Source of the DNA: Isoetes taiwanensis
Taxonomy: Eukaryota > Streptophyta > Lycopodiopsida > Isoetales > Isoetaceae
Length of the DNA stretch: 64,000 nucleotides
Assembly: GCA_021234155.1 (NCBI GenBank)
Contig: JAJEKV010000057.1
Location: forward strand, 5,549,821-5,613,820
Direction: 5' to 3'
Both the position numbers and the translations under genes were made by a program. Position 1 is the stretch's first letter. Every line of letters begins with the position of its first letter. Below, in pieces: positions 2,160 to 38,660 of this stretch. The notes beneath the pieces were generated by a model that worked only from the letters and a program-made list of their open reading frames with translations, was not told the DNA's origin and ran no database searches.

Positions 2160-2446
2160 AAGGTGATCCATTAAACCCCATTATGCGATCTATTTCCATC
2201 AAGCAGGTTAAGTAAAGCTATACGCTAAAGATAAGCTACTGCGGCCATCGGACTTGCATCCATTGAGTCCGATGCTAAAACGTATAAATAGTTGATGCTT
2301 TGCCGTAAAGCATTGCTAATCTTCTTAGGGAATTTAGTGATCTCTTTCCGCATCGAGATCCGTAAACTTCCTCCATTCAGAGGGGTAGAATGTGAGATAG
2401 CTTTGGAACCAGGTACTAAGCCTACCAAGAAGGCCCCCCGCATCGT

Positions 2447-3742
2447 ATGAGTCCCCCTGAATTGGCCGAGCTTAAGAAGCAACTTCAAGAGCTACTAAAC
2501 CTAGGCTTCATTCGACCTAGTGTTTCGCCTTTTGGCGCTCCTATCCTTTTTGTTAAGAAGAAGGATGGCTCCCTGAGGATGTGTATTGACTATCGGCAGC
2601 TCAACAAGCATACGATCAAGAATCGCTACGCTTTGCCTAGAGCAGACGATCTTATGGACCAGTTGCAAGGGGCCAGGTACTTCTCAAAGATTGACTTACG
2701 CTCCGGATATCATCAGATAAGAATTAAAGAGGAGGACATCCATAAATCTGCTTTTCGTATGAGATATGGGCATTATGAGTTTACCGTTATGCCTTTTGGA
2801 CTAACTAATGCCCCCGCAACTTTTATGCGGTTGATGAATGATGTCTTTCGACAATACTTGGATGATTTTGTTGTTATTTTCTTTGACGACATTCTCATCT
2901 ATAGTAAGACTCTGGAGGAGCATGAGAAACATCTTCGGTTGGCCCTACAAAAGCTAAGACGTCACCAGCTCTTTGCCAAGTTCTCTAAGTGCAAGTTTGC
3001 CACTCCCAAGGTGGACTATTTGGGACATGTCATTTCAGCAGAGGGAATTGCTACAGACCCAGCGAAGATAGAGGCAGTAAAGGATTGGCCCATTCCGGGT
3101 AATGTCTCAGAGGTCCGAAGTTTTTTAGGCTTGGCAGGGTATTACCAGAAATTTGTTAAGGATTTTGCAAAGATTGCAGCACCTTTTACTGATCTTATAA
3201 AGCATGAGAAAGTGAAGGATTGGATTGAACATTGGAAAGCAAAGGTCCAGAGAAGTTTTCAGAAGCTTAAGGATGCTTTAATGTCAGCACCAGTCCTCAC
3301 ATTGCTGGACCCCGAAAAGGATAAACTAGTAGCGACGGATGCCAGTAGGATTGCTACCGGTGGAGTCCTAATGCAGGAGGGGAGGGTTATTGCCTATGAT
3401 TCAAAGAAAATGAACGAGACCGAGCAACGATACCCTACCCATGACCAGGAGTTGTTAGCCGTTGTACGTGCTCTGCGTATATGGAGACACTACCTTCTTG
3501 GTAGAAGGTTTCAGCTTGATACAGATCATCAAAGTCTCCGTTATTTGTCAACCCAGCCGAATCTCAACCTCCGTCAGAGAAGATGGATGGAATTTCTGGA
3601 GGAGTATGATTTTGAAATTACGTATAAGCCTAGGAAACACAATGTGGTTGCGGATGCATTATCATGCCATCCCTTGGTAACTCGAACCCATTGTAACGCG
3701 ATTTCCACACTCACCAGTGAGTTCGAAAAACAGATAGAGTAG
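2447..3742 (+). CDS. pol: gypsy reverse transcriptase-RNase H, 431-codon open frame
   Basis: This is the intact core of pol. It shows the RT blocks in order: [11 protein letters not shown]-type block (residues ~45-55), [11 protein letters not shown] with the first catalytic Asp (~80), [12 protein letters not shown] (~115-126), and [12 protein letters not shown] holding the catalytic Asp pair (~144). RNase H follows, with [30 protein letters not shown] and LDTDHQSL giving the acidic residues. The frame ends at the TAG at 3,740. Integrase resumes two bases later in another frame, so this was once one polyprotein. The listed ATG is only the first Met of the remaining frame. Confidence 0.92.
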
Positions 3743-11968: not shown

Positions 11969-12002
11969 TATAAACAAGGTTTAAAATGAAACGCACTTAT
12001 TT
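11969..12002 (+). repeat. Left inverted repeat of the 16.9-kb block
   Basis: This arm pairs with 28,838-28,871 on the other strand. It is followed by a perfect 10-bp hairpin stem, AAACGCACTT ... AAGTGCGTTT. Confidence 0.7.
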
Positions 12003-12199
12003 AAGAAGTGCGTTTGGAAGATTCCTTTATAAAAATTGAAAACTTAAAAAAAACACGCAAAATAGGGAGCAAAATAGATTGTTGAGCAATTAGCATTCGG
12101 GATACGGTGCTTCGAATGGCACCCGAAAGGAAGTTGGCCATCCAACTGGGTTCGCCCAAGCGAACCCTGAGAATTCGCCCAAGCGAACCCCGAACCCAA

Positions 12200-13200
12200 G
12201 CGAAGTCGCAGACGTGGCTATGGCGGCCGGCTCACTTGGCATTCTTTGCGGGTTCGCCTGCCACCCCCTAACCCGGTTACCTGCGCAGGGCGTCGGTGGT
12301 GCACTCGCCACCCTACCGGGTTAAGCCGCTTCAGCGAATCACGGGCGGCGTGCATGATGGCAGAGCGTCGGTGCGTCGGTGGAGTGCCCGCCACCCTACC
12401 GTTCCCCAGGGATTTATCCCGGGTGGCAGGCCCACACGGTGTGGCCATTATGGCCTGGTATGGCCCGGTGGGGATGACTGCGTGCCTTTTACCGGGTTCG
12501 CCAGCGAACTGTGGTGGTAGGTCTTTCGCATAACAGCCCTATTATGGTCGCAAGTCGGTGGCAAGATCGCGTGCACTGGCACCCTACCGGGTTCGCCAGC
12601 GAATCCAGGGCCTCCGCTGCACTGACCGCTTGGTGGAGGAAATCCAACTTTCGGTCTTCTTTGAATCCAACTTTTCGGTGCTGCAATTCACGAAAAGGAA
12701 TCTATGAATTTTGAGTGTAGCCTCTCGAGTATATATTCATACCTTCGAGGCTTTTGAGTTTGTATGTGAAGCGGTGGCGCCGAGCGGTTCAAGTTCGGGC
12801 TGATCTTGAAGCCAATCTCCGCGGCAACGTCTATCCGCCAAGTGAGTTTCTATCCGCTTGGTGGGCAATTTTTTTCTTGTTCTGGTCCATATTTTGTTAA
12901 AATGTTTTATTCTAAAATGGCGTGGAAATTGCTTGATATTGTCATTTTTTCGTGGAAAATCGTTGCCATTCTTCTTGCCCATCTTGTTACAATGGTCCGC
13001 CGGGCTTGAAGACCGTTTTGCGACGTTGTGTCCCTTCTAGCGAATAATGCTCCTCCTCCTCTTCCTCCTGTGGACATCTCCAGCAATCCCCGCCTCCTCC
13101 TCCTCCTCCTCCTCTTCCCCTACTCCTTCCTCCTTTCCTTTCACCGCCGTTTAAACGATGAGTGAAAGGGAGCTTCGATTGCGTCCGTGGGCAAGTCGCG
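12200..13200. other. GC-rich 5' part of the MULE, repeats only
   Basis: This stretch has several copies of ACCCTACCGGGTT and GGTTCGCCAGCGAA-like units and a CTC-rich tract at 13,049-13,130. No coding sequence is convincing. Confidence 0.5.
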
Positions 13201-13541
13201 GGAACGATCGGTAGAATGGCTCACCGAGCCAAATAATGATGAAACAATGTTGGATGTGCAGATAATGATGCAAGTCGTTGCATCCAATTGTCAAGTCCTC
13301 AGAATGGACAAAAACAATGTATAATATTTTATATGAATGGGAAACAAGTAGTATAATGTGTTGCTTTATAATTCATATTTGTGTTTTGTGAAGACCCCAA
13401 TGTATCTATAGCTTTGTACTCAGGCTTGTGTTCATGTTCGACTGTACCTCAGATATCTATTCGAGATCGTCGGTGCTAGAGCAGGCGCAGTTGCTATAGC
13501 AGGAGAATGGCTGAGGTAGTCACTGGCGACTCACCGGTGAG

Positions 13542-16500
13542 ATGTCAGATGAAAATGATAGTGAGTATGACCTTCCTGACAACGAGGATGACACAATGTT
13601 GGAGGAGGACACCGGGGATAATGTAGATGACGGGTGGAACCCGCCTGGTCAGGTTGCTCCAGAAGTTACTCCCAGCCAAAATTCCCAAGAACTGCTTGTA
13701 CATGAAGTGGCCGGTGTCTACCCGGACCCAGTTCAATGGCTCCGTGTTGCCCCCCAGGGTGGTTATGCCCTCAACGAGTCTGTGTATGGGTTGATGAGGC
13801 TGTGCCTACAGGAACACTATGTTCCCCACCCGGCCGAAATAAGTGCTGCTGATCCCCTCTTGCCCCCGGTCTCGCAGAGAAGCGGGAGGCCACCCATCGA
13901 GCACCATGTCAGGTTGATGTACCGATGGGCTGCATATTGTGAGGAGTTTGCAGTTGACGATGACTCCAACGGCTGGTTGTACCGGCGCGTAACTGGGCCT
14001 CATAAGTTAGTCCCTTACGTGGAGTTTTGGAGCCAGTTGGTTGCCATGGGCCACTTGAATGGAAGCACCCATCGGTCCCCCACTGCCACGTTTGAAAAGA
14101 TTTCAGAGGAATGGGAAATTGGTCTGCGGCGCCATGGCATCCCACAGGAATACATAACTGCATGCATGGAAGTGTGCACGTGCAAAAGTGGTCGCACCAT
14201 GAAGGACAACGACTTCAACTACGCGGAGGAGACCACCGTGGACCTCCTCGAGCAAAGGGTGATTGAGCTTCAAACCACTCATCGTGTCCGTTTGGTCCAT
14301 GGACATCAACGTGTCAGGGCGGCGACGGGCGAGATTGTGGATGACTATGCCTGCCACCGATGGAGGCAACCACGCAGGAGAGGGACCCGGGGGGATAGGC
14401 AAATCAGACGGTCCCACCGCAGAGGTTGCTTGTTTCGTTTGCGGACAGTGAAAGATAATGGAAATGGTGCACGGATATACGTTAGCACCGAACACACTGG
14501 CCATGATCCTTTCACCAATGCGGAAGATTGGTCCATGCGTGCATCCCGAACTCCCTTGGCGGCCGCCGACTAGAGCTTAGAAGTATTGGAATGACCCGTG
14601 CTGCGTGGGACATCGCAAGAGCACGGGGACCACAAATACGTACGACGGTGAGCCCAGTTGAGAGAGTCACATACCGCTTCACGATGGCGCAGGAGGATGT
14701 GTGGCAATTGGCCTACCGGCAGAGAATACTCGGTAAGCTCCACTGATAAATCTTTTACTATGGAACAGTGACGTTGTTGTAGATTTATGAGAATGCTTAG
14801 TTCGCTGCGAATAGTAATGAATTTGAAGTAAATATTTTATCATTTTATGCATCGTAGGCGGGAGTTTGGGTACGGACTGGGAAAGCCTCGAGAGCGGGAT
14901 TGACGATTGGAAAGCCTCCGGGAAGGTGATTTTTCACCAGCCTTGGAATCCGCGATGTCGCCGAAGCCGTTGGACCGACCATGGATCCTAGTCATCCAAG
15001 ATGACAGGATGTTGGAGGCTACTGTGAGATGGAGCGCTGGCGGTGGTTGGGCCATGGATTCAACCTTCTGTACAAATCTGTGGAAGTTTCCCTTGTACGG
15101 AGCGGTTGTACCGATTGCCGGGGGTGTGGGGTACCCAGTGTTTTACATGCTATGCAGCGTGGAGGCCGACGAGGGGCACCAACGACATGCCCTCGAAGAT
15201 AGCGCCACGCCTTGTCTTCGGTTTAATGGGCACAATCAGACCGAGGTCAATCACCATTGACATGGACGGTACTGTGGAGAGACGGGCTATCACCGAGGTT
15301 GTGTCGGGAAGACTAACATTGTTGGGAAGATGGCGAAAGCGTGTATGTCGACCCGTGCATTGATTGTATCAACACATTGGTAACAATAGCCTCGGTTTTG
15401 CAAAAAGGTTGCGGTGCAATGTTCTTGCATGTTGGTTCCATCGGCGTCATGGGCAAAATATCCGTTCCGCGCTGGCCGAGATGCTAAGGAAAGACGTGGC
15501 CTTGCGGCTGTCGAGGTTGATGACTGAGCCAAATGCCAACGCCTACAATGCCCAGCTGGCACAATTTCAGCTTCTCTATGGACAAAACCACATCATCCAA
15601 GGGTACTTGAATCACAACTGGTTGAATGGGGCGACGTGGGATGGTAAATGGCAGAGACACAAACGGCTGTTCAACCATGCCAACGCCGACACAACAAACT
15701 ATTGGAGTCACACCGAAAGTTTTGAAGACTCAAACCTTGCAATTGCAAAGTCAATATAAGGATGTACACACTAGTGTCTCATCTCATTGGTTTTCGGGAC
15801 GGACGATGCAGTAGGAGGCACAATCCTAACTCGGTGCGAAGAAAGATGGAGTCTTGGTAAGTACAAAAGGGTGTAACTCTCTCGTGTGTTGGTCGTAACC
15901 TCTCTTTTTCCATGCGTACCGAAGTTTGGGACGCTTATAGCACGCTCATATCCAAAGAGACATGCTTTGGTGCTCACTCCATTATCCAATCATTGCACGA
16001 TAACCCCAACGCCATCCGGTTGGAAGATGCCGCAGACGTCAGTTATCTATGGCTAGCCACCAATCGGAGGGACCGAGATACACTCAAGATATGAGGATGC
16101 GATATTGCGACGCCCATGCCCTCATGCCGTGTGCAAACATCTCATAGCGGAGACTATTTCCTTACCCCGAGCCACCCCCGCATTGTACAATGAGCTATTT
16201 CCCAACCGACAATTCATTCCGCCCATGCCTCCGCGACCGCCCGCACCAATGAACGACGTCGATGTCCTCATGCCGCTGCTACAACAATGGGATGCGTTGC
16301 TCATGGCCGAACGTCAGACTGTGCAAGCCACTATGCAAGATGCTCATGCTCTTGACCCAGGAGATGTGCGTGAAATTATATCCAAGGTTCGCAGGCAGAT
16401 ACGATTCTATAGAGACGCAGCCGGCCCCCCGGTTCACGTCTTTCATGGCGGTTACGATAGGCAGCAAGAACATGCCCGCAGTGGAGTCCACAGATGGCGT

Positions 16501-16572
16501 GCAAGGCCGACCGCAGCGAGGGACCAACCACCACGACCTCGCGCACGAATGAGAGGCCACACAGCAAACTGA
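13542..16572 (+). pseudogene. MULE transposase with SWIM-type zinc finger remnant
   Basis: The first frame (13,542-14,573) is an acidic N-terminus followed by a domain of unknown role. A probable intron lies around 14,750-14,860. The DDE core follows. AMDSTFCTNLWKFPLYGAVV (near 15,060) has the first Asp, ITIDMDG (near 15,255) the second, and CWFHRRHGQNIR (near 15,430) is the C-x2-H block of the MULE family. LCL-poor linkers precede VCKHLIAE at about 16,131, matching the C-x-H end of a SWIM finger that binds DNA in these transposases. Frameshifts between 15,260 and 16,090 break it. It cuts and pastes DNA carrying the matching terminal repeats. Confidence 0.75.
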
Positions 16573-19500
16573 TATGCCATCACTCATAGCATTGTCACAT
16601 AAATAATGTCGCATATAATGTTACATACATGATTACATGATTACGGAGAAAAGCTTCTAGCTAGATAGATCCCAAACAAAGACTAACAAAGGACCATCGA
16701 AGTCTTTGTTGGTACCAAGACACCCTACAATAAAGCGGCCGACTACTACGGGCCACTCACTCCTAAACAAGCCAAGACATCGCCGCACCGTGGTACCAAC
16801 CCCGGCTTATCGGTATAACAAGATCCTACGGGTTTGCCACACGTCCCGCACGAGGTGGCGCATGATGAAACCAATGTGCATGCCACAGGTATTGTTGTCG
16901 ACCTGCAGCGGGCACAATGCAGGCCGCACATTTGAGGCAGCACCCCATCGATGTAACACCGGTGCCCCCATTCGCCAAGACCCAAGCGGTCGCTACTGCA
17001 CAAAGAGAGTACAGTCGATCACTAGTGGCGGGCACAAATGGGAAAGACAGGGGACTAGAAACACTCACGAGTTTAAGCGCCGGTAGGTTGATGCGCTCCG
17101 AAAACCCCGCCGCGGAAGGCATGTTGTCGAAGTACCACCAGCCCACGTGATCGTCATCTCCGAGGCCTAGGCGAAAAGCGCACGCCGGCGGATCGTATGA
17201 GAGCAACAAGCATCCAATGACCATCGCGACACGCCAAAGATGTATGACTTTCGCTTCCCTTAAGTCGAGGATTGCCTCGGAATTGAAAGTAAAGCAAAGA
17301 ATCGAAAGTACTTACCCCTCGGGACGATGGGCCGTAGCACTGCACGTAGTGCACCCGGTCGGGATGCGGGTGGGAAGAAGGTGGGAGACGACTCCTCGGG
17401 AGGGACGTTTCGACACCGAACAACATAGTCGTGATAGTAACGGGGTCTATCATCAACAACTCACGACGCCCTCTCCAAGCATCCGCCGCGAACACGCTAC
17501 ATATAAGCACACGCCAAATATCGATTTTGTCGATCCATACAAACTAAACATAAACCCGACACGCACCTCATCAACACTCGAATGTGCCCCTCCTCCCATC
17601 GGCCCATCGTGGGCGACGCCGAGGAGGTCGATGTTAGTCACGACGCATGCTTTGGCCCGCCCTCTTGCAATATCCAAGTCGCCGCACCATCCGGACGCCT
17701 CGCCGCAACCATGGCAAGGTGTTCTAAGTGATCCGGGCCGTAGTAGTGCGCGCGGAACACCCTAACCTCTTTCCTTAAAAGGATTTGAAGATGTAACCCA
17801 GCGGGATCCGTAAGTGCTCGGGAACTGCGGCCGACCGGCCCGTGGGCCGAGACCATCCTCGAATGGGTACACACACCGTAGCTCCAGATGGTGTGCCCGT
17901 CCGAACTCTCCGCAAAGCGGGTACATGAAAAACCCGTGCTCGGTCTCTTATCCATGCCTCGCTCCCTCGACATTGCGATCAGCGAAATGGGGAAGTCAAT
18001 GTGTGTGCCATGCCCGCGGTGCCCGCCATCGCCGCCCTCATGATATCATCGAGGACCCGGGCGACTTCTGCTGGTCAGCCTCGCCACCGCAGCGCCCCTA
18101 TGGAAGGAGGGGTGGCCATGTACGATCGGCCGGCGGGGACGGTCTCATGATCGGGGCTGGATCGGACGCGGGTCCCTACCTCGACCGAACTCTTCCCCTC
18201 GCCGCCTCGCAAGCCACTCACCTCCCCGCAATGGAGGGATCGGGTTGGAGTGTGGATGCTCGTGGCAAAGATGACTGGCCAGAACTCGGGCCGAGACTCC
18301 CCGTGATCCCTGTGGAGCTCGGCTAGCAACTCCTCCTCCGTGGGAAAATGGCCACCGATCCTCTCTCAGGCAATGGCCCGGGCCATTGAGCATAGCATGT
18401 GCGGTCCAGTCTTCTGTCGAACGCCACACTGTGCTAATTAGCTCTTACTCTAATGCGACCTTCATGATAGGGCTGCATCCTCTCAAGGCCCCGCTACCAG
18501 GCGGTGTCGGCTGGCCTCATAAAACATGGCGCCCCGGCCCTCGGGGAAGGCATCTAGGGCCGCCTCGGGGGTAAGGACATCTTTGTAAGGCGATCGTTGT
18601 TGCTCCTTGTCTCCTCGCCTCTCTATGTCGCCCGCGGCCTCCATCATACGTGCGGCTTTTGCGGGATCTTTCGACGCTTTTGCAGCCCCCTCCCCGCTTC
18701 GGACACCACTCTCTCAGAATTGCGGGGTTGCACCCCTTGGCCGGGAATGTCCATGCGTGGGCCACCATTGATCCGCATGGTGGCTCGATGGTGCCCCCTA
18801 AGCTCCATGTGGGTCAACCCCGGAACCGGTCAGCGGCGACTTCTATCCACAAAGTGTGTACACCTGTGTCTTTGTGCAAATCCACCGCATTTGGGCAGCG
18901 GTGTGGGGCCCGACCGCTCTCAACAGGCGTGACCACATGCGCACGGGCACCAAATGCCATGGTATTCCACGTCTACAAAACAAATCGGTTAACAAGCACA
19001 CAAAACATACCTAGCGGGATAAGATTTGGTGCGGTTGGGGTACCATTCAACAATGCTACCGATCGTGGGGGGACATCAAAGCCGCTTGAGCCAAATGGCA
19101 AGGGACGGCATCATCCATGCCGATTTGGGGAAGCGCCTGGGCCGGAGACATGGTCTTTGGCGGATAAATGTAGATTGCTCAAATAGATATCCGAATTCCG
19201 TGTGATTATGAGTCGACGTAAGAGAAGCTTTAAGAAAAAGGAGAAGCTTCAACAAATAAAAAGAAGCTTCAACAAATAAAAATAAGTTCAACGTTCAAAG
19301 AAATAAAAATAAGCTTCAACAAATATAAATAAAGCCCACCTAAGGAAACAAACTTTATTATGATGGGCAACTCTCACCAATCAGAAAGCAATAGGGATGG
19401 CAATAGGGAACCTAGATGCACTTGTACGAGCACACTTATAATTTTGTCAATGGAGCTCAAAACAAGACTCAAAATCGCTCAATGCAACTCAAAATCGTTC

Positions 19501-19640
19501 CAAACAAAGAAAAAAGGAAGGCGAAATACTTGTTTTTAACAGGCTAAGGAGCCACGTTCTCCAATCGATCCAACAAAGGAGCCAACAAAGTGGCCACGTT
19601 CACAATCGATCCAACTGGAGTTGCTTCTGGAGCTTCTTCT
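16573..19640. other. GC-rich 3' part of the MULE, unresolved open frames
   Basis: Several overlapping open frames of 70-180 codons exist on both strands (for example 17,217-17,765 plus, 17,154-17,510 minus). None shows a domain I recognise. High GC content inflates chance frames. Donor-like GTAAG signals on the minus strand leave room for a decayed second MULE gene. At 19,215-19,325 there is a short tandem repeat built on AGAAGCTTCAACAAATAAAA. Confidence 0.4.
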
Positions 19641-20884
19641 TGCTTCAGGAGCTCGTTCTACAGCTGCACAAGGAGCGTCCGAGCCGAAGCGCAAAAAATT
19701 CTCTAGAAAAAAATTTTGCTTCCATTGTTATAATCCTGCAGGGCACGATTCCATGGGCCCGATGCTCACGGGCTCACGAAACCCGGGGTGACGGCCGACA
19801 GCGTCAGCCGGTCCGCCACCCGGCCCGTAAAATGACGGTCAGACTTTCCGTGCCGAGGGTTCGCCAAGCGAACCCGGTAGCAGAACCCTAAACCCACCTG
19901 AGCGCCGTATTCCCTCGCAGCTGGGCCTGCATCGCTAACCCGGGGTTCGCCCGCCAGCAACTCCTAGGCCGGGTCCGCCCAGAACGGCCAGAGCCGCCAA
20001 GCCCTCTCCGCACTGCCAAGCCTCAAGAATCATCCCGTAGCTGGTTAGCCCCAAGCGAACCCCGTGAGGGGAGACACGCCGATCCGCCAAGCCCCCGACG
20101 CCCACGCCACGCGGGCCCTCGCGAACCAAGTGGGTTCGCCCAAGCGAATTTTCCGGGTTCGCCCGGGCGAACCCACTTGGTTCGCGAACTTGGATTCGGG
20201 AGCCAATAAAGTGCGCGTTCGGGATACCCCCAAAAAAGCAATATTTTTAAAGCTTTTTCATTTTAAAAGAAGGGCAAAAAAAAAAAAATGCTTGTTTTAA
20301 GGAGAGAGACATTAACTTTGATAACTCAAGAAGTATTTATTGTTAAAAAACAGAAGAAAATATAGATTGTTTTTTGCAAGCTTAATAGAAGTACTAAAAA
20401 AGACAAACATTGGAAAGACAAAGAGTGTGAAACTCGAGCAAGAAAAGAGTTGTTTCAATTAAGCATTGTTAGAGAGACAAAGCTTTCAGTTTAAAAATCT
20501 TCATCAAAATAAATTATAATATTACTTAGCACATAGTTTACAATGAAAGTGGTTAAGAACTCATTCAGATAAATTTATACGAGAGGTGGTTTCTTCTTCA
20601 ATCCACAGGACTCTCGCACCCTTTAAGATCCGGGCTCTTTGCGAGCTTACAAAAGAAGGGCGCCTCCTTACGATTCCAAACCTATTGGCACAGCGGTTTC
20701 TGCGGCTCGGGCACCACAGCTCCAAGTCAACAAACTCCACCTCCTCATCTCTTCTTCCCGTAAGTGGAGGTCAGATTTTACGTAAGTGCCCTTAGCATCG
20801 GCCGGCACCGTTCTTTGCTCCCGGTTTCCCGTTTTCATCGTGAAAGGATTCGCAAGAGCTTATCCCGGTCCCGATGAAGCTTAC

Positions 20885-21252
20885 TTTATCCGGGTCTATG
20901 TCGACGGAGGCGACATTGGTACCGCTTAAGGGCGAAAGCTGGCCGCGGGTGCCCGATCCGGAAAAGGCATCTAGGATCCGCCTCTGCCGAGAAAACCATC
21001 AGATCAAATTATTAATAAGCCGTGGCTTCGATAATGGGACACCACAAATAGCTTTGTCGCCATTTGTGGGTCTTTAATTTCGCAAAAACAATTTGGGGAA
21101 CCGAAATGCATTGCGGGGAGGAGTCTTTTTCATTCGCGTGTTAAAATGAACCATGGTTTTTTGGCGTCCGACTGTAAAAAACCTATATGAAAATGCTCGA
21201 AAACACTCACTAAGCGGACCACCACCATGACCCTTGACGTTTGTTTTAAGCC
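20885..21252 (-). pseudogene. Methyltransferase exon with motifs X and I
   Basis: Acceptor TTGGCAG opens the exon and donor GTAAGC closes it. HFNTRMKKTPPRNAFRFP, then LSKPRLINNLI, then ILDAFSGSGTRGQL and VASVDIDPDK lie in one frame, with two stops between them. F-x-G-x-G-T is the S-adenosylmethionine loop, and the D-I-D after it would bind the ribose. Confidence 0.75.
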
Positions 21253-21529
21253 TGCCAAGCAATATAGAAATTAGAAATTAGTAAAAAGAAAACAAGGAAA
21301 ATAAGTTAGCCCAGTTAGTGTGGCGGTATAAACTTATACCACGGTTGCCTTGCTGTATAAATTTATACCACGGCGGCAAGCCGTATAAATTTATACAGAC
21401 ATTGCCTTGCTGTATAAATTTATACCACGGTTGTTCCAGCCTTTAAAATTTAAACCTTAAGACAGATGTGGTATAAATTTATACCAGGGAGTTACCGTAA
21501 AACAAAAAAACGTTAATTGTGAAGCTTAC

Positions 21530-21931
21530 CAAACGTTTTTGCCGGGCTTCTGCCAAGCATGCATCCGCTCCCATAGGTTTAAGCACCGACATCGTCTGAA
21601 GGTCGAATGAAAAATGATGACCCTCCAGTTTTCAGATGTCGTGACTTCTTTGAGGCCATCCAGGAAAGACCGGACTTGCACGTGAGTGAAAGCCTCCTCA
21701 TCAAAAGCGCTATCCTTTATTTTAAATCCATAAGGAATATCTGCAATGCATAATGTAAAATGTTGCTTGTCTAAAAGAGTCCCCAGCCTTGTACAATCAC
21801 CCTCAACAACCCTGTATTGGACGTCCCGACCAAATGTGGTAAATCTCTCATATGTACAGTCAAAACTGGAAGTGGCGACCTCTCTACCCTGTTCAATTGC
21901 CTTTAACCTTTGCCTCTCTTCCTTGGCCCTA
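21530..21931 (-). pseudogene. Methyltransferase exon with catalytic motif IV
   Basis: This is about 134 codons without a stop on the minus strand, from a CAG acceptor to a GTAAGC donor. The block GDCTRLGTLLDKQHFTLCIA followed by DIPYG matches the strand-plus-catalytic loop of amino-methyltransferases, where D-P-P-Y is usual. Here the second residue is Ile, as in related D-x-P-Y variants. WRVIIFHS fits the next conserved strand. Confidence 0.75.
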
Positions 21932-23696
21932 CTGAACCAGGTTCAAAAATCCAAAGTGGGTAGCCCCTTCTTCTTGTTTCTTAAGAGTAATGTGAGACAA
22001 AGGCACAAACACATAACATATTTTTGCAAAACTTACCCAAACCATCGGGTTAAGCTGCGTGCTCTCGATGATACTTGTCACGTGGTACAACTTGGGTACA
22101 AAAGTTTGCACTCCTCGATCTTCTAGGTTGAGCTGCTTCATTAACTCGGCGGGCAAGTGACAATGTCTTTTCCGATCGCAAAGGGAAAAATATTGTAAGA
22201 CAAAAAGGTAGAAAAAAACATGGCATAGCAAGTGAGGCTTACGTTTTAGCTTCCTTGGCCATCTCGCCTAATGTGAATTCTTTGGCAACTACTTTTTCCA
22301 ACAAAGTAACAAATATTTCTTTGCTTTTAAGACTCAGAATCAAGGCCCGAGGGTACAATGCTCATATTTTTTGTTTTGATTCACCACCTTTCTTTGGTTT
22401 CTTTCCCGCGTCTTTAGCTTGTTCTTTGAGCTCCCCATCTTGAACATACAAAAAATTCTTTCTTGAAGATCCCACACCGTAAAGCGGTCAAACGAAATTT
22501 AGTCTTTGAATGGCGTAAGAGGATGGGCACGGCGACTCAACACGGTATAAATTTATACCGCGGTTCGGTCATGATATAAATTTATACACAAAGTGCACGT
22601 TCACAGGTAATTTATATCGCGATTTGCACTGTGATAAATTTATATCAGAAGCCGTCAGCGCATATAAATTTATCACGTTCGTCTCATTGTATAAATTTAT
22701 ACCGCGACCGGTGCACTGTGATAAATTTTATATCGCGGCAGCTTCCGTATAAATTTATACCGCGGCCAGGCACGGTATGAATTTATACCGTCAGTAGGCT
22801 ACTACAAGATTCTAACCACGCTAAACATACTACAAAAGATTGAATTGAATCTTTTACTTACTTGACCATCTCTCGAAAAGCGAAATGAAAGTAGTTATCG
22901 TATTGTTTGACGTACCATTATGGGCTTCTTATCAGAATCATAGCTCAGGCAACACTCCGTCACACAGGCTTCTCGAAGCTCTTGAAGCTTATTCTTCTGT
23001 TTTTTGAAGTCCTCTCCATGCATTTGTTTGAACTCCACGTACTCTCGATGCATGAATCGGATCTTATCTATTAGGCTCATTTTTAACCGAAAAGTCATTG
23101 TCAAGATTGTGACTTTACGGCAATGACTTTTGCCTCTTAAATGCTGTGATACCCACGTAAATATGGGCTTCCACGCTTTTCCACACCTCGTTACGGGTTT
23201 CCTCCTTTGAGAGTTCTTTTCTAGCCTTGTAGCTGTGTGTGCCTCCAAGGACGTAGTAGGTGTAATCTTCGAAGTCTGCTTTTTGTAATCCTGCAATCGA
23301 TTGCATTGACTTCTATCAACCATAACAACTAGAGGCGACACATACGCGCATGAGGATTTCTTCTCATTCTTTGCTTAAGAATGGCCACATGTGCCGCGTA
23401 CAACTTTTCGGACTGGCAAGCACTCGACCCCATCTTCATTTTTTGGTGGCCTCTTGATAGTGCTTAGTGTCAAAGAAATGGTTTGTTTGAGCAGTTTGGT
23501 TTCATTAACCCGCTTGAGAATAGCACTTGACTTATCTGCGGGCTTCACAACGATGTCTGCTCCAGGAGCCTTCTGAAGAGCTTCTGCTGACTCCTCTATA
23601 GTCAAGGGCTTTGTTTTTCTAGATTTTTTCTTGGTAGGAGGCTGTGTATCTAGTACCAGGGAATGCTTCCTACCCTTTCCCTTTGTGTTGCCTGGT

Positions 23697-23775
23697 TCCT
23701 CCTCTTCCTCTTCCTCTTCCTCTTCCTCTTCCTCTTCCTCTTCCTCTACCTCTACCTCTTCCTCTACTACTTCCT
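23697..23775 (-). repeat. CTTCCT-type microsatellite coding poly-glutamate
   Basis: A CTC/CTTCCT hexamer-like repeat encodes about 20 Glu residues on the minus strand inside the acidic exon of the methyltransferase gene. Confidence 0.85.
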
Positions 23776-25679
23776 CTTCGATACTACGGGGGTACCATAG
23801 ACCCTTGACCAACACTTTTTCGTCGCACAGCACTATTGACATCAAAATTTCTACTACGTCCTGTAATGCAGGGTTATGTTAAGAGACCCGATGGTATAAA
23901 TTTATACCTGAAAGCACCTAAGAATAACTTACAAAGCCGCTCTTGTAATTGTCCGAAATGTAATCGTGCACGTCTTTAGGCTTGCACATGCTTATTTTAA
24001 ACATTCTAGTATTGAGAACATAGTAGAGGCGGGCCCCTTGTCATGGTTGCCTTCGCATTAGAACTTCATCATCGTTCTCTGTAGCAACAAGTTTCATAAT
24101 TTCGCCAAATAGGTAATAATCATCGACTTGAACTTGCCCTTCCCTCGATTTATTGCACAAGTAAAGGTGCGTGATCGATTGGGTTTGCTCTCTCTGCGCC
24201 CCGTGGACGCGTACCAAGTCCGATCCTTTAGTTCATAAGTCTGTGGCTCGGTGGTGCAGCCTTTGATGATGACCGCCGAGCACAAACTTGATCTTAGGGC
24301 TGGAAAACGAAAAAAAACCATTTTACATAAGAATATTAACCTTTTTCGAAGTTTTTGAAACACAAAACAAAAGAGAAAAAAGAGGATGAAAGGGCATAAA
24401 ATCCACACTAAATTAACACTTTATTTGTGTCATTTAAGCTAGAAACACAACAATATTACGAAAATATTAAGGTTGGGGACCATTCGTTGAGAGCTTTGGA
24501 CATCAAAAATCTGAAATAATTTCGAAGCGGTATAAATTTATACGGCTCGAGCAGCGGTATAAATTTATACCATTTCCAGTACGGTCGGTATCGACCGTGC
24601 TCGAGCTGGTATAAATTTATACCGCCTCGTGCTCTTTCCGTGATACCGATCAGGCTCGGAGGGGTATAAATTTATACCGCCGTGCTCAAGCCGATAAATT
24701 TATATGCTTTTAACCGAAGCGGTATAATTTTATCGGCCTCCGAGCACTTGCGATAGATCGCTAGTGCTCGAGCCGGTATAAATTTATACTTTCGAAAGCA
24801 CAAAGCTTATAAATTTATACCGATCCGAATCATCTCCGGTATAAATTTATACCGTGGGGCTTACACTCTAAATGATTAAAACAAAAGAGAAACTAAAAAC
24901 GATGCGGAAAGTAGACTTACATTGGCCATGACCGTATGAACTAGCGTATAGAGGTTCAGGAGAGCAAATAAGAGGGGGGTATATAAAGGCGGACCGCCGA
25001 CCTTCGACTCTAGCCAAGGCGTATATGGGAAAATAGGATTGGCGTGCCACGCTTAAGTACCCTCGCTAAGTGCCGCGTTTAGATAGCGTTTCTCCATAAA
25101 GATTCCAATACAAGTGTTCGTGAGTTTTCGTATATAAATTTATAATGTCTTCCTCCCCTCTGTATAAATTTATACCATCTCTCAGATAAATTTATACGGT
25201 CTGCAGGCTACAAGTTTGCCTTCTCTCAGATAAATTTATACCATCCCCTGTAAACTTTTTAGATACCGCTATTCATGTCGTATAAATTTATACAAATTGT
25301 GACGCTACCTTTTCGAGTATGGCTCGAGAAAAAGAACTGCAGAGCCTCCAACTCCCCGCTCGCGGGCTTCCTCCTGCGGTGACATTCACACCCCTCAATC
25401 GACACACGAAAGTAGCCTCGAAATTTACGCCTCGATATTCAAACCCCCACTACTGTTGATCTTACTCCAAAGACGACCACCTCGGCTTCCACCACCAGTT
25501 CAATTTACTCCACCACACCCGCCCTCAACGCCGTTTGCCCCCACCAATGCGCGTTTTACTCCACCACAGCCCTAGAGAGGTCGGACTACCTCCTCCACTT
25601 CATTTTAGCATTAAGCCCTTAGTCCACCATAGGCTAAATCCGAGGAGGCAAATCACGCCAACTCCATCAATTTCGCTAA

Positions 25680-28410
25680 ATGGTACTACAACAAGTGGGG
25701 CGGTCGGCAAATGACATGCAACTCCCTTTTTTCACGACACCGGGGAGCTGGTCAACTACGCCACCAACCTCGATTACTTTTTTCCTAGGGAGGGAAAGCA
25801 CCTCCCCTCGGGACTTGCACACACTAAACCTATCGGCATCTACAAGTACACCTCAAGTTGATCTCTTAGGCTAAGAAACACCTCATGTTGATGTCTCGGA
25901 CGAGGACCTACCAAAGCCACAAGACTCTATGTTCAATTCAAAGCCCCCCGCAAGTAAGAATCTTAAGCGTATTAACTTACACAAGAAAGCATGTACAACT
26001 GTTAGAAGAAAGAAACTCATGGAGGAGGCTCACTTGCGGGCAACACATACAAAGCATTGTTGTTCTCAACGTTGTTTGCTTAAGATTGGACTAAAGGAAT
26101 TGAGGTTGATTCGTGATAGTTACAGAGTTCAATGACTCGCTAGACCAAAGGGGCTACTTAGCCTTCAATATTAGGGCGGATGATGGTGAGAAGTTTACTT
26201 ACACGGCTGGTGGCCACACCGCCCTGGTCAAACGGCCTTCAAATTGATTCATGCTTTAGGCGTGAGCGACGACTTGACCGCCTAAAGAAAAGGCTTGACA
26301 AGAATCCGGGCATTAATGACTCGCCATTCGGGAGGCATAACCGTAATTCATGCCCTTCAATGTGTCTCCGGATGGAAGGTTTCTTTAAGGAGTCTTGTGA
26401 GAAACTCCCTAATAGCCCTATGTACCACTTGAGTGACAATTTCACGAAACAAGAAGTCTACGATAATTATAAGGAGATGTGTGTTGAGGCTGAGAACGCT
26501 TTTATCCGCTACTCTTACTTTTCTTGTGCTACGGAAAAAAGAGTTTTCTCGTGGCCATTCCTAGAAAGCATAGGATGTCTGTTTGTGCTACATGCTCAAT
26601 TAAAAGCTCAGAGACAAAATGCAAGGACACTTCACACTAAAAGTAAGCTTCGGGGCGTGTTCTTGCCTAGTTCTACTTAAAAGTAGGTTTTTCCTAAACA
26701 TATTTTCATTTCAGATGCATTGAAGGAGAAACCGAACAAGCACGAGAGAACAACAATCTTTGGAAAGGAGAAAATTGACAAAACATAGGAAGAAAGCACT
26801 GGAACAACCACTCAACTACATATCAGTTGTTATTGATGGAATGGACCAGAAGAAGACCACCCTACCACATTTTGTCAATGTGCCTAAGGATGCTGCTGAA
26901 GAAGATTTCATACATCTGCATGTTGTTGGTGCTATGGTATTTAATGGAAAACTATCTTGCAAGGCATTTTTGAATTATCCAAACATTCATGCTGATCCAA
27001 ATCTCACTATCACAATATTGAATAAGCTTCTTTCCAATCTAGAACATATACCACCGGTTCTCAGATATCTTGACTAGACAACACGACAAGGGAAAATAAG
27101 AATCAAGCGTTGTTTGCTTATCGCGGCTATGCTAGTAGAGAAACAAATCTTCAAGAAGGTGAAGATTGGTTTCCTGCTTGTTGGTCATACACACGACCAA
27201 ATTGATCAGATGTTCAGTAGGTTCTCTAAACGTCTTGCACGAAAAAAAGCTCTCAGCCTACCAGCAATGATTGAGGTTATCCAAGATTCCTACAATCCTC
27301 GTCCAGACATCGAGTTGTTGGAAGAAACTTATGATTTCAAAGAATGGATTTTTCGAAGAGATCAACTGGGTCACTGTGCTATTGAGCCCTTGAGAAATAT
27401 TACATTTCAGCATCAGATCAAAATTTCACTTGTAGATGGCAGGGCCATCTTACAAGGAAAGAAATATGCCACATCTTTGCAAAGATGGCCGGCAGTGTGT
27501 ATTCAATTCATTCGCACCATCCCCAATACTAGTTCCATGCTCTGCAGAGAGCAAATGCCTCTAAAAAGCTTGAAAGAAATCACAAAGAGTAAAAAGGAGG
27601 GAAGAGCATTTGACTCAAGCAAATCATTGGATTTTATTGAGACAAGTATCAAACGTGCTCTAACCACTTTGGGGAGGCAGATGCTTTATGGTGGCCTCAG
27701 GTTTTTTTTCTCAAGAACGTGATATTTTGCAAGCTTCATTACAAGGTCGAAGACCAGTTACATTCAACTGGCCATCTAGGCAAACTCTCCCTGTGCAAGT
27801 TGATAATCAAGAGGAACATGTAGAGATATTGGCTAGCTCAGATGAAGATGACAGAGTCATGTACACTGGCCCCAGACGCACAGCACAACAAGTTGCTCGA
27901 GTATCTGGTTCAGTCTCAGAGATTCAGAAAGGAATGCTCATAGCTGTCCCAGCTGATAATGATGAGTCTGGGAAGCCGCTCGGCTAGCTAAAAAGTTTGG
28001 AGGTAACAAGAGAGGATGGAATTCCCACTCAACTAAAAGTGCAATCGGATGAGAACAAATGCTTTGCCGGTGCAAGCTTTGGGAGTTATACTTTGGAGAT
28101 GGTAAAAACAGGAGTGGGAAAGAGAGCAAAGTCCAAAGCAAGTACTGCTGTCATAGATCTATCTGAAGTGAAGGTTCTTGCATATGACTTTGTTTTGACT
28201 GCTGCTAATAAGTTACGTATGGTCACTCAAACTTTAATAAGGTCAGCATGTGGATTAGACAAACAACCTAGAAAGGTGGCCAAAAAGGATGATGATGAGG
28301 ACTCACTTGTAGACAGTGAGGAAGAAGATCGTTCGAGTACATCCAGTTTTGAGAGTGAAGCTGAGGATGAAGGCTCAAGTGATCAGGGATTAAATGAGTC
28401 TGGAGGATGA
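25680..28410 (+). pseudogene. DUF7869-type protein, possible transposase, frameshifted
   Basis: An N-terminal zinc-like segment (ATHTKHCCSQRCLLKIGL, ~26,040) is followed by linking blocks. HRKKALEQPLNYISVVIDGM (~26,785) ends in DGMDQKKT, LDNTTRENKNQALFAY spans ~27,070-27,117, and LLVGHTHDQIDQMFSRFS lies at ~27,178. I recognise this set as the family catalogued as DUF7869, found in repeat-like proteins of many eukaryotes. The three acidic blocks resemble the spacing of an RNase H-like DDD/E core, which is inference. The C-terminal frame (27,997-28,410) ends in a Ser/Asp/Glu-rich tail. At least three frameshifts (near 26,245, 27,075, 27,120) break it. It is transcribed divergently from the methyltransferase gene. 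Confidence 0.65.
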
Positions 28411-28837
28411 GATGCATCCCGATCTTGTTTGCAAAATGTAAGTTTGTCCGATGACTCAAACATGTAAAAAACAGAAAGAGCAGGTGATGACTGTCTGTCA
28501 AAATGTTCTATATTTTTGACAATTTTGTTCATAATTTTGTACAATTTTCACAACCATGAATATATCACTTCTTTGTCACTCTATTACCCTTGCTATTTTT
28601 TTAATTGCCCCTTTTTTGCTACACTTTATAAAAGTAATTATTTTTTGTTCTAGTTTAGGAGGATGAAAATTGCTATTTGAAATTTTTGCATGAAAGTTAT
28701 GTTCAATCAACCCCTCAAAAATGGTACCTAAATTACTTAAATTGTCACACCTGTCACAAAAAAAATCTTAAAAATGGACTTTTTTAAGGGAATTTTAGGG
28801 AATCTTTCAAAGATTCCTTTTGAAGTGCGTTTCCAGC
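28411..28837. other. No gene seen
   Basis: AT-rich tail between the DUF7869-type stop and the right inverted repeat. A 70-codon frame begins at 28,774 but looks like chance. Confidence 0.5.
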
Positions 28838-28871
28838 AAATAAGTGCGTTTCATTTTAAACTTTGTTTATA
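28838..28871 (-). repeat. Right inverted repeat of the 16.9-kb block
   Basis: Inverse copy of 11,969-12,002. It lies about 430 bases after the stop of the DUF7869-type frame. Confidence 0.7.
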
Positions 28872-28947: not shown

Positions 28948-29668
28948 CCATTAGGAAATATAGAAGTGGACCTAAATGAATTATAGGTGCATTTGGAGGG
29001 ATGTTGGAGAGCATGGTCAAAGATGAATCTTTTGGTTGGTTGTCAAATTTCTTCTTGAATAAGATTGTTAAATCTCACAAGATTCTAGACTCTTTCTAAG
29101 GACAGTTTGACATTCTGTTGTGATGCTAATGGTTATTTCTATGTAGAAAAAATGAAATCTAAGTCTATATCTCCTAAAGCTTCGAAATATAAAGAACCAT
29201 CAAAATCTTTGAACTTAATGTTGGGAAAGTACTATTAAGTAAATTTCGAATTTTACTTTAATGATTTCGCAAGTCTATGGGTTGGTAAGTTTCCAAATAT
29301 GAAACCGCTAAAAGCTGTTGTAAGTTCATTCTATCTACGAACTTGTTAAATTAAAATAAAATTCAAAATTTATTTAATCGTACTTTCCCAACTTTTAAAT
29401 TCAAAGATTTTGATGGTTGTTTATCATCGGAAGCTTTCTGAGACATAGACTTAGATTTCATTTCCTCTACACAGAAATAACCGCTAGCAACACATCAGGA
29501 TGGCAAACTGTGATTAGAAAGAGCCTAATGAGATTTAACAATCTTATTCAAGAAGAAATTTGACAAACAACTAAAAGATTCATCTTTGGCCATGTACTCT
29601 TGGTACATCCAACACCCCTCCAAATGAATCCATAATTCAGCTAAGTCCATTTCTATCTTTCCTAATGG
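28948..29668. repeat. Long foldback (inverted-repeat) element
   Basis: The left arm (28,948 to about 29,260) and right arm (about 29,345-29,668) are near-complete inverse copies, roughly 85% alike by eye, around an 80-base loop. The arms begin CCATTAGGAAA and its inverse. No coding capacity. It resembles a MITE or foldback transposon. If transcribed, the RNA would form a hairpin of over 300 bp. Confidence 0.85.
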
Positions 29669-36490: not shown

Positions 36491-37180
36491 GATCAACTCT
36501 GTTAAGATAATCACTTGGAATCTCCAGGGTATCAACAATCTAGTCAAAAGGGATCGTCTGAAGGTCTGTCTTTCTACTCTTAACCCTGATATTTTATTTA
36601 TCCAGAAACATAAGATTCATGACCCTGACCATGGTAATATTATTTCCAAGGCCCTCCCCCCTAATTTCAAAGTTTGGTCAATTAGTGCTAATGACTCCTC
36701 TGCAGGAATTGCTATTGCTTGGAATCAGAAAATTAATTTGGAAGTGAACCACATGATCTATGATAACAATGGGAGGTGGCAGATCCTTGTTGGCAGCATT
36801 GAATCTTGTAAAATTGCCTTAGCAAATGTCTATTCTTATCACAACCCCTCTGATAGGATTATTGTGTGGAACAAAATCAACCAGAGCCTGGCTAATCTGG
36901 ATGTTGATGACCTGGTCCTCGAAGGAGATTTTAACATGGTTACTGACAGTTTCATGAAGAACAGGAACTTCAAGGCTCTTCTCCCTCAGGAAAACTGTGC
37001 TTGGTCGAATCTTCTGACTGCTCATAACCTCACTTTAGCTAGGACTAAGCCCAATGCCTATAGCTGGTCTGAGGTTTTATATGAGTGAGAATCTTTGGGA
37101 TAATTGTAGCAGAGTTGAGAATCTGATAGGTTATACTCTTTCGGATCACTAGGATAACAAAGGGAAAAAGAAATCCTATT
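36483..37180 (+). pseudogene. LINE APE-type endonuclease domain
   Basis: VKIITWNLQGINNLVKRDRL opens the domain. PDILFIQKHK carries Lys where the conserved Glu is normally found, a probable inactivating change. DLVLEGDFNMV is the GDFN block. The frame stops at 37,086, and the SDH motif (TLSDH, near 37,140) is in another frame. Confidence 0.85.
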
Positions 37181-37185
37181 TTAAA

Positions 37186-38660
37186 ATGAATGTTAGCCTT
37201 TTAGACCAGGAAGATTTCTTGACCAGATTGCAAGACATCATTAATTGTCATCCTATGCCTTGTGGTGATTTTGGTTGGATGTGGTGGTGGATTAATTTGG
37301 CAAAGCATATCAAGAATTGGCTTAAAGAATGGAGAAGAAGCATTTTTCACCAGAATCAAGCTCATCTGTTAGATCTGAGAAAAAGACTGAGCAATGCTCC
37401 CATAGAGCAGCAAGATAATATTAGAATTCAGATCGAGAAAGAGGAAATTAATATAGCCAAGGGATGGAGGATGAAAGCCAAGATTAAGGGGCTTAAGGAA
37501 GATGAAAGGTGCAACTCCAAATATTTCTTCATCAAGACCAAGACGATAATTAAGATGAACCAGATATATGAAGTCAAGAATGGGGATGATCTCATTTCAG
37601 GGGACCATTATCTTAAAAGGGCTGCAGTGGACCATTTCACTACTATTACGGGAACTAATATGGATTGTTCAGGGGAGATGATCAACACGTTCATAAATAT
37701 GAGGAAAAAGATCAATGGCAATCAGAATGACATGATTACCACCCCCTTTGTCAATGATGAGCTCAGGGATGTGACCAAAGGTATGGATAATGGGAAAACC
37801 CCTGGACCAGATGGTTTGCCAGCTGAATTCTTCAAGAAAGCTTGGCCCATTTTAGGGGATGGTATTACCAGGCTGGCCAATGAATTCAGACTTTGCAAAC
37901 GTCTGGATGCTAGAATTAATACCAGCCTAATTGCCCTTATTCCAAAAATTGATTCCCTCACATCCTTTGCTGACTATAGACCCATATCTTTGACTAATGT
38001 TATCTACAAGATTATTGCAGGTGCTCTTGCTGCTAGACTTAAGAAGGTTCTGGAATCCACAATTAGCAGCTCCCAATCAGCCTATCTCAAAGATAGATAT
38101 ATCCTTGATAATGTTGTCACTACTATATTGGGTCTGCAATGGGCTAAAGACTCCAAACAAGAGATGGCTCTTCTCAAATTAGACATCACCAAAGCCTTTG
38201 ATACAGTGAGCTGGAACTTCCTCTTCAAAAGCTACAGAGCCCTGGGTTTTAATGAAGAATGTATTGGCATATTCAGAGCCATCCTCAGTAACTCAAGATT
38301 TGTTGTTCTCATAAATGGTGAATGTAGCCCTTTCTTCTCTATTCAGAGGGGAGTAAAACAAGGTTGTCCTCTTGCACCCTTTCTTTTTTTGATTGTTATG
38401 GAGGCTCTTCACATGTTGCTAAGCTTACTAACTCAATTAAGGGTCTTCAACTTCCTGAGAACTTTCAGACAGACCAAATCCTTAACGGACATTTTGCAGA
38501 TGATACCTTCATTTTAATTTCCATGGATCATAACTCGATCATCAATACTCAGCAGATCCTCCATGATTTTAGACATGCCTCAGGATGCAAAATCAACCCT
38601 CAAGTCAGCAATTCAAGCAAGAGATATAGACAAAGGTACACAGGTCGCCAGCCTCCTAGG
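37186..38660 (+). pseudogene. LINE reverse transcriptase
   Basis: The long frame 37,186-38,517 has GKTPGPDGLPAEFFKKAW, PISLTNVIYKIIAGALAARL, LLKLDITKAFDTVSWNFL with the first catalytic Asp, and IQRGVKQGCPLAPFLF. The catalytic pair GHFADDTFILIS at about 38,488 is intact but lies in a different frame after a frameshift near 38,410. Otherwise well preserved, so this insertion is younger than the minus-strand LINE at 7-11 kb. Confidence 0.92.

Follow-up and report, generated by a model that had tools for sequence, protein, structure and literature searches.

A two-gene DNA transposon family of Isoetes taiwanensis with a predicted ParB-like DNA methylase and lineage-specific palindromes

Here, we report a repeated DNA transposon in the genome of the lycophyte Isoetes taiwanensis, with two divergent genes and its own short palindromes; one gene holds a DUF7869 domain, and the other is predicted to encode a DNA methylase joined to a ParB-like domain. 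The copy described here lies in a stretch of 64,000 nucleotides of contig JAJEKV010000057.1 (GenBank assembly GCA_021234155.1, positions 5,549,821 to 5,613,820, forward strand), hereafter the window, and was compared with homologous loci (given L numbers) in the same single genome (1.66 Gb in 1110 contigs). An original prediction, made from the window alone, had placed an intron-split methylase gene of the bacterial beta-class order, in a mobile setting, at 20885..24410. That range covers the methylase gene only, and the element itself extends over 11973-28867. New relative to the prediction are its ends, the ParB-like domain, the divergent DUF7869 gene, and the palindromes particular to each lineage.

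Results

Features of the window copy are as follows.

11973..28867, no strand: whole transposon copy, about 8.8 kb minus the nested insertion, delimited by terminal inverted repeats and the TATA target duplication
11969..11972, no strand: target-site duplication TATA, left
11973..12002, plus: left terminal inverted repeat, AACAAGGTTTAAAATGAAACGCACTTATTT
12106..20227, no strand: nested foreign insertion, including the second copy of a 10-bp duplication, TTCGGGATAC (first copy, 12096-12105)
20580..21251, minus: methylase exon 6 with LSKP (motif X), ILDAFSGSGTRG (motif I), and tail; broken, low end approximate
21530..21972, minus: methylase exon 5 with IADIPYG (motif IV)
22037..22172, minus: methylase exon 4, ends approximate
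22243..22477, minus: methylase exon 3, linker VWDLQE...EMAKEAK, start approximate
22862..23860, minus: methylase exon 2, acidic linker and ParB-like domain (YYVLGGTHSYKARKEL); frame-shifted, ParB-like by way of the homologous L009 domain
23933..24299, minus: N-terminal exon, a domain without Pfam or structure match, with two in-frame stops
21325..25294, no strand: span of the element's palindromes, with 22 GGTATAAATTTATACC matches at no more than 3 mismatches (7 exact) and 19 exact TATAAATTTATA cores
25870..26680, plus: transposase-like gene, earlier exon, by homology, ends approximate
26700..28410, plus: transposase-like gene, later exon(s) with DGMDQ and GHTHDQIDQMFS, broken by stops, ends approximate
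about 27105-27473, plus: DUF7869 (PF25273) domain in the later exon(s)
28838..28867, minus: right terminal inverted repeat
28868..28871, no strand: target-site duplication TATA, right

The decayed methylase gene of the window has six minus-strand exons between positions 24299 and about 20580, and at least five of them contain stops or frame shifts (by eye). IADIPYG (21747-21727) is followed on that strand by LSKP (21034-21023) and ILDAFSGSGTRG (20977-20942), as predicted, but motifs X and I share one exon rather than occupying two. Because this copy is broken, its exons scanned alone stayed under the Pfam cut-offs (UPF0020, 0.0015; N6_N4_Mtase, 0.14), and a composite of the window methylase had no match in NCBIfam. 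The same exons in less decayed copies read ADIPYGF...HYQKPQRLINNLIQWFSRPGDWVLDAFSGSGTT, and the motif order IV - X - I is therefore correct. The search against N6_N4_Mtase that had been proposed as a check gave 2.8e-15 and 3.4e-15 in homologous copies, the second value from the methylase part of L015, and L009 and L015 scored 57 bits against this profile (PF01555; curated cut-off, 26.7). The GT-AG introns of the prediction are visible in homologous copies. In L015, six exons with such borders join into a single open frame of 935 codons. For exons 4 and 5, a script chose the acceptors that maximised frame length (935 or 934); about nine codons at the beginning are probably intronic, and no upstream exon bearing the start codon was located.

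All four little-decayed copies that were aligned (14 copies carry the methylase) have ADIPYG or ADLPYG together with FSGSGTT, which bears out the expectation of conserved D-x-P-Y and F-x-G-x-G-T in repeated copies, here of the same genome; motif IV is changed in L022 (ADLPYR) and L027 (ADIPYA). A phage methylase profile matched L009 at 1.8e-19. Against solved structures, a four-copy profile matched CcrM best (1.6e-8, profile positions 39-245) and also MboIIA and RsrI, with which it has the beta-class order and motifs in common; these are bacterial enzymes without a ParB-like part or introns, and we take them to be adenine enzymes. By its sequence, then, the predicted enzyme is a DNA amino-methyltransferase of the permuted beta class, to which a ParB-like domain is fused. 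The D in motif IV and CcrM as the best structure suggest adenine as the target, and adenine is probably the base that is methylated; bacterial motif IV is reported as DPPY in N6A enzymes and SPPY in N4C enzymes (PMC8885841). Searches for a donor found two phage records at E 0.9 in one case and 159 in another (best, 26.8% identity, 2e-5), no match among viral contigs in one search and one of 49 residues in another, and no match among bacterial and archaeal genomes. Since the phage matches are weak and the others near nil, no donor is named.

The ParB-like domain is likely a DNA-binding domain; the L009 copy matched the PHROG profile "ParB-like partition protein" (4.3e-6), the sole profile in its support, and tblastn against plasmid ParB proteins gave E values of 0.7-4, which are not significant. 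An N-terminal BAH domain, suspected by eye, was dropped, having support from neither Pfam nor structures.

Comparison of copies gave terminal inverted repeats of about 30 bp, AACAAAGTTTAAAATGAAACGCACTTATTT (30 bp in the window), and perfect 4-bp target duplications (by eye) flank all eight copies in which both ends were read: TATA in the window, GTAG in L009/L029, AACT in L010/L030, AATG in L014/L031, TAAC in L015/L032, ATCC in L017/L033, TTAA in L019/L034, and ACCA in L027/L035. The seven further copies measure 8.5 to 10.0 kb from end to end. Inverted repeats and a duplication of fixed length, present in each of the eight, identify the predicted element as a cut-and-paste DNA transposon with two divergent genes, and with the repeated loci they confirm that the methylase lies inside a mobile element. 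The window copy is interrupted by an 8.1-kb insertion, possibly another transposon, flanked by the 10-bp duplication TTCGGGATAC; it is missing from L012, L014, L016, L017, L019, and L027, whose left end lies about 120 bp from the insertion point. Open reading frames inside it (13515-14570, 15364-15756, and 16057-16569) had no Pfam match.

The DUF7869 gene is on the plus strand, divergent from the methylase gene, and in the window its domain match scored 102 bits. Its location and repeated occurrence make it a likely transposase gene; it falls within the element ends, but the loci had been picked by a DUF7869 match. All 150 scored candidates in the genome, of 9903 first-look candidates, matched DUF7869, which suggests that this Pfam family, to which no function is assigned, has probably undergone a very large expansion; no paper on DUF7869 was found among open-licence papers.

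All 19 exact TATAAATTTATA cores of the window lie within 21356-25292, where 0.01 would be expected, and in simulated sequences (60 per locus) no 12-bp palindrome occurred more than twice; a chance origin was rejected on these two counts. The only other GGTATAAATTTATACC match with no more than three mismatches in the window (12728) is inside the nested insertion. Across the window and 20 further loci, three classes were found, all conforming to GTAT-N6-ATAC with a core that differs by sub-lineage. Class A, GGTATAAATTTATACC, is that of the window, L012, L014-L017, L019-L021, and L027, with fewer in L013 (5 cores) and L018 (3); class B, GTATGAATTCATAC, occurs five times each in L009 and L010; and class C, TGTATTCCGGAATACA, occurs in L022-L026 and L028 (4-11 cores). 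L011 had no palindrome. A locus holds a single class, except that both B copies also have one A core each. L018 has a distinct palindrome, GCGCAGCTGCGC, in five copies, three of these TGGCGCAGCTGCGCCA.

The palindromes lie between the two genes and in methylase introns, and six of nine A copies have one more downstream of the matched methylase stretches; matched coding sequence held none, and neither did the intervals between transposase matches (matched exon parts only). Place is not assignable in L013, L018, and L026, where the methylase was not found. No palindrome lies within 3.5 kb of the transposase-side end in any of the seven two-ended copies, while on the methylase side the nearest one is 0.5 kb from the end in L014, L015, L017, and L019, 1.2 kb in L027, and 2.7 kb in both B copies. 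Spacings are concentrated at 28-32 bp in A (79 of the 141 below 70 bp) and at 42 bp in C (16 of the 28 below 150 bp), or about three and four turns of the helix, tandem copies being non-independent.

Genome-wide, the exact 16-mers number 7218 for A and 3392 for C (about 1.2 and 0.6 expected from base composition; reversed controls, 0). Among 18 further regions upstream of DUF7869 genes, A was found in seven, C in five, and a fourth class in none. In transposase and ParB trees, each class falls on one side of a supported branch, L011 (without palindromes) being labelled A by its transposase. Variant C-class palindromes have CCAG or CTGG for CCGG in L049 and L055, TCGG in L049 and L054, and CTCG in L050; the CCAG and CTGG forms are consistent with CpG-type changes after past cytosine methylation, and TCGG and CTCG are not of that type.

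The window methylase had 184 matches in the genome, from 146 scored of 3083 candidates, and among those listed many are 80-98% identical to the window and most are without internal stops. When 20 loci of 10 kb were drawn from the 150 DUF7869 matches, blind to methylase presence, the methylase lay upstream and divergent of DUF7869 in 14 and the ParB-like domain was present in 15. Methylase identity to lineage B is 67% in A copies and 54% in C copies. Third-position differences in lineages A and C are 1.7 to 7.8 times those at first and second positions across methylase, ParB, and linker stretches, counted with stop-bearing rows kept. At codon positions 1, 2, and 3, lineage A differs in 0.102, 0.098, and 0.357 of codons in the first methylase exon and in 0.102, 0.050, and 0.388 in ParB, and lineage C in 0.073, 0.074, and 0.415 in ParB; the excess is smallest for the second methylase exon of C (0.221, 0.169, and 0.367). 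With stop-bearing rows dropped, the first methylase exon of lineage A has a mean pN of 0.088 and pS of 0.501 (10 pairs); between lineages, pS is saturated. The third-position excess indicates that the methylase gene was maintained, under purifying selection as judged from codons, while the lineages split; single copies decay after insertion.

Discussion

We propose, with belief and doubt about equally balanced, a two-gene transposon whose ParB-methylase would read and mark the element's own palindromes and so keep the element active against silencing. The DUF7869 protein would act as the transposase. The divergent gene would yield a protein of N-terminal domain, acidic linker, ParB-like domain, and beta-class methyltransferase of adenine-N6 type, which might recognise the palindromes in their GTAT-N6-ATAC frame and methylate or occupy them. 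Such marking would label regulatory DNA, the element would stay active despite silencing by host cytosine methylation, and changes in palindrome and protein would free sub-lineages from one another's control. The second protein appears to combine a methylase with a likely DNA-binding domain, and the most straightforward reading is therefore that the palindromes are what it binds and marks. That the ParB-methylase is their reader we favour by a little; an anti-silencing purpose is more tentative, somewhat short of even; and the full picture, a DNA transposon family with its own sequence-addressed N6-methyladenine (6mA) system, shielding from 5-methylcytosine (5mC), palindrome-protein co-evolution, and mutually independent sub-families, is slightly more doubtful again.

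Several points weigh against this proposal. The window methylase copy is, to judge from its reading frames, a pseudogene. Pfam scans gave no ParB match for the ParB-like domain, solved structures gave nothing significant (sulfiredoxin only, at E 2.4), and its phage matches in tblastn are not ParB. Methylases often recognise short targets, and a palindrome of 14-16 bp would suit the binding domain better than the methylase core. Six of the 18 further upstream regions held no such palindrome (L038 and L039 reach less far upstream). The three lineages amount to two palindrome changes only, methylase co-divergence is indistinguishable from common descent, and the transposase tree fits the palindrome classes equally well. 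A third-copy test on nine A copies found differences in 0.078 of site columns, 0.402 of flanking spacers, and 0.253 of other noncoding columns, but palindromes anchor the alignment, so the low value at sites is partly built in; plain pairwise conservation of the palindromes (0.109 versus 0.247) was dropped as about what ascertainment alone gives. The only recent pair, L009-L010, has no silent excess (ratio, 0.80 in the first methylase exon and 0.73 in ParB), as expected where copies decay after insertion.

The palindromes could be binding sites of the transposase, with the methylase serving another role, for example in protecting the element generally or in regulating transposition. The DUF7869 tree, too, resolves the palindrome classes as clades, and precedent exists in the subterminal repeats of CACTA elements, which their transposase binds, and in other short-repeat arrays bound by transposon proteins, which are well known. 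Yet the palindromes do not lie near both ends; they keep away from the transposase end and are concentrated around the methylase gene, many of them within its introns, which argues against transposase sites, and we consider this explanation unlikely. Much the same standing falls to the suggestion that they are operators through which the ParB-like part controls both divergent genes, the methylase domain having no silencing role. About half or more of the sites are intergenic in the nine A copies tabulated (10-30 sites each; in L012, L016, and L019 this count includes the first intron), as operators would be, but each of the three lineages has intronic sites, spread over as many as three introns, and these, together with the downstream site in six of nine A copies, exceed operator needs; the catalytic motifs are kept.

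A passenger methylase, captured from bacteria or phage and kept briefly, is very improbable: its significant matches to named proteins are to enzymes of prokaryotes or phages, in collections that hold few eukaryotic sequences, but the gene is present in 14 of 20 loci chosen by DUF7869 and in three lineages, with a third-position excess. The idea of an unrelated or RNA-modifying host methyltransferase, raised by the weak match of the window exons alone to UPF0020 (RlmKL-like), was dropped as highly implausible in view of the permuted order, the N6_N4_Mtase and CcrM matches, and the place inside a repeated transposon with inverted repeats.

Methylases in eukaryotic transposons are already known, and the combination found here had no description in the titles and abstract openings of open-licence papers, where no report of a beta-class methylase or ParB-methylase in a DNA transposon was found (Repbase excluded). 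The novelty claimed in the original prediction thus holds for the combination and not for a methylase in a transposon as such, given the precedents in DIRS and in dinoflagellate and charophyte elements (PMC5890265). DIRS retrotransposons carry Dam-like enzymes, and the dinoflagellate and charophyte retrotransposons carry cytosine methylases; they resemble the present element as eukaryotic transposable elements with a DNA methylase gene but are retrotransposons with Dam-like or C5 enzymes, and a ParB-like domain or arrays of their own motif go unmentioned in the accessible part of that source (PMC5890265). The scanned open reading frames of our element held no reverse transcriptase or tyrosine recombinase (DIRS), and it has inverted repeats and a 4-bp duplication instead.

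The layout is shared with VANDAL elements of Arabidopsis, in which VANC binds motifs and brings about a loss of DNA methylation through a mechanism that is not known, according to the part of the source available (PMC5735166). Both have a second transposon protein, short, often tandem motifs in their own introns and upstream, and motif differences between sub-families; VANC is a DUF1985/DUF287 protein without a methylase, its motif YAGTATTAC is non-palindromic, and its transposase belongs to another family (PMC5735166). The scanned element had no Pfam match at E up to 1 to DUF1985/DUF287 or a MuDR-type transposase. The bdelloid rotifer N4CMT is likewise a permuted N6_N4_Mtase in a eukaryote, with marks deposited at transposons, but it is a chromodomain-fused host gene with SPPY, whereas here a transposon gene has a ParB-like fusion and D-x-P-Y; it was described in 2022 as without eukaryotic homologs (PMC8885841, in part). 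Fungal DNA transposons with TET/JBP dioxygenases also pair a DNA transposon with an enzyme that edits DNA marks; theirs is a dioxygenase, not a methylase, and palindrome arrays are unmentioned in the portion of the source at hand (PMC12730594). Sola2 shares a 4-bp target duplication and short inverted repeats, and the authors of that study suspected that the Fanzor1 protein, encoded by Sola2 and by other DNA transposons, may act as a methyltransferase (PMC3627910, in part). Fanzor1, however, is homologous to TnpB and does not belong to the beta-class methylases, and Sola2 is likened here by duplication and repeats alone.

Loss of the AMT1-6mA pathway has been reported for plants (PMC12695648, in part). 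If the proposal is true, a multi-copy transposon with such an enzyme, maintained by selection, and thousands of its own palindromes would predict sites of local adenine methylation and would be a second, enzymatic solution to the problem that VANC solves. Anti-silencing by a transposon would be directly testable, since the target sites can be named beforehand.

Just beyond the right end of the element, at 28948-29668, the window holds a large inverted repeat (arms of 133, 80, and 61 nucleotides, 84-89% complementary), possibly a foldback element. Reverse transcriptase open reading frames of two retrotransposons lie at 2420-3739 and 37153-38514, the first also with RNase H.

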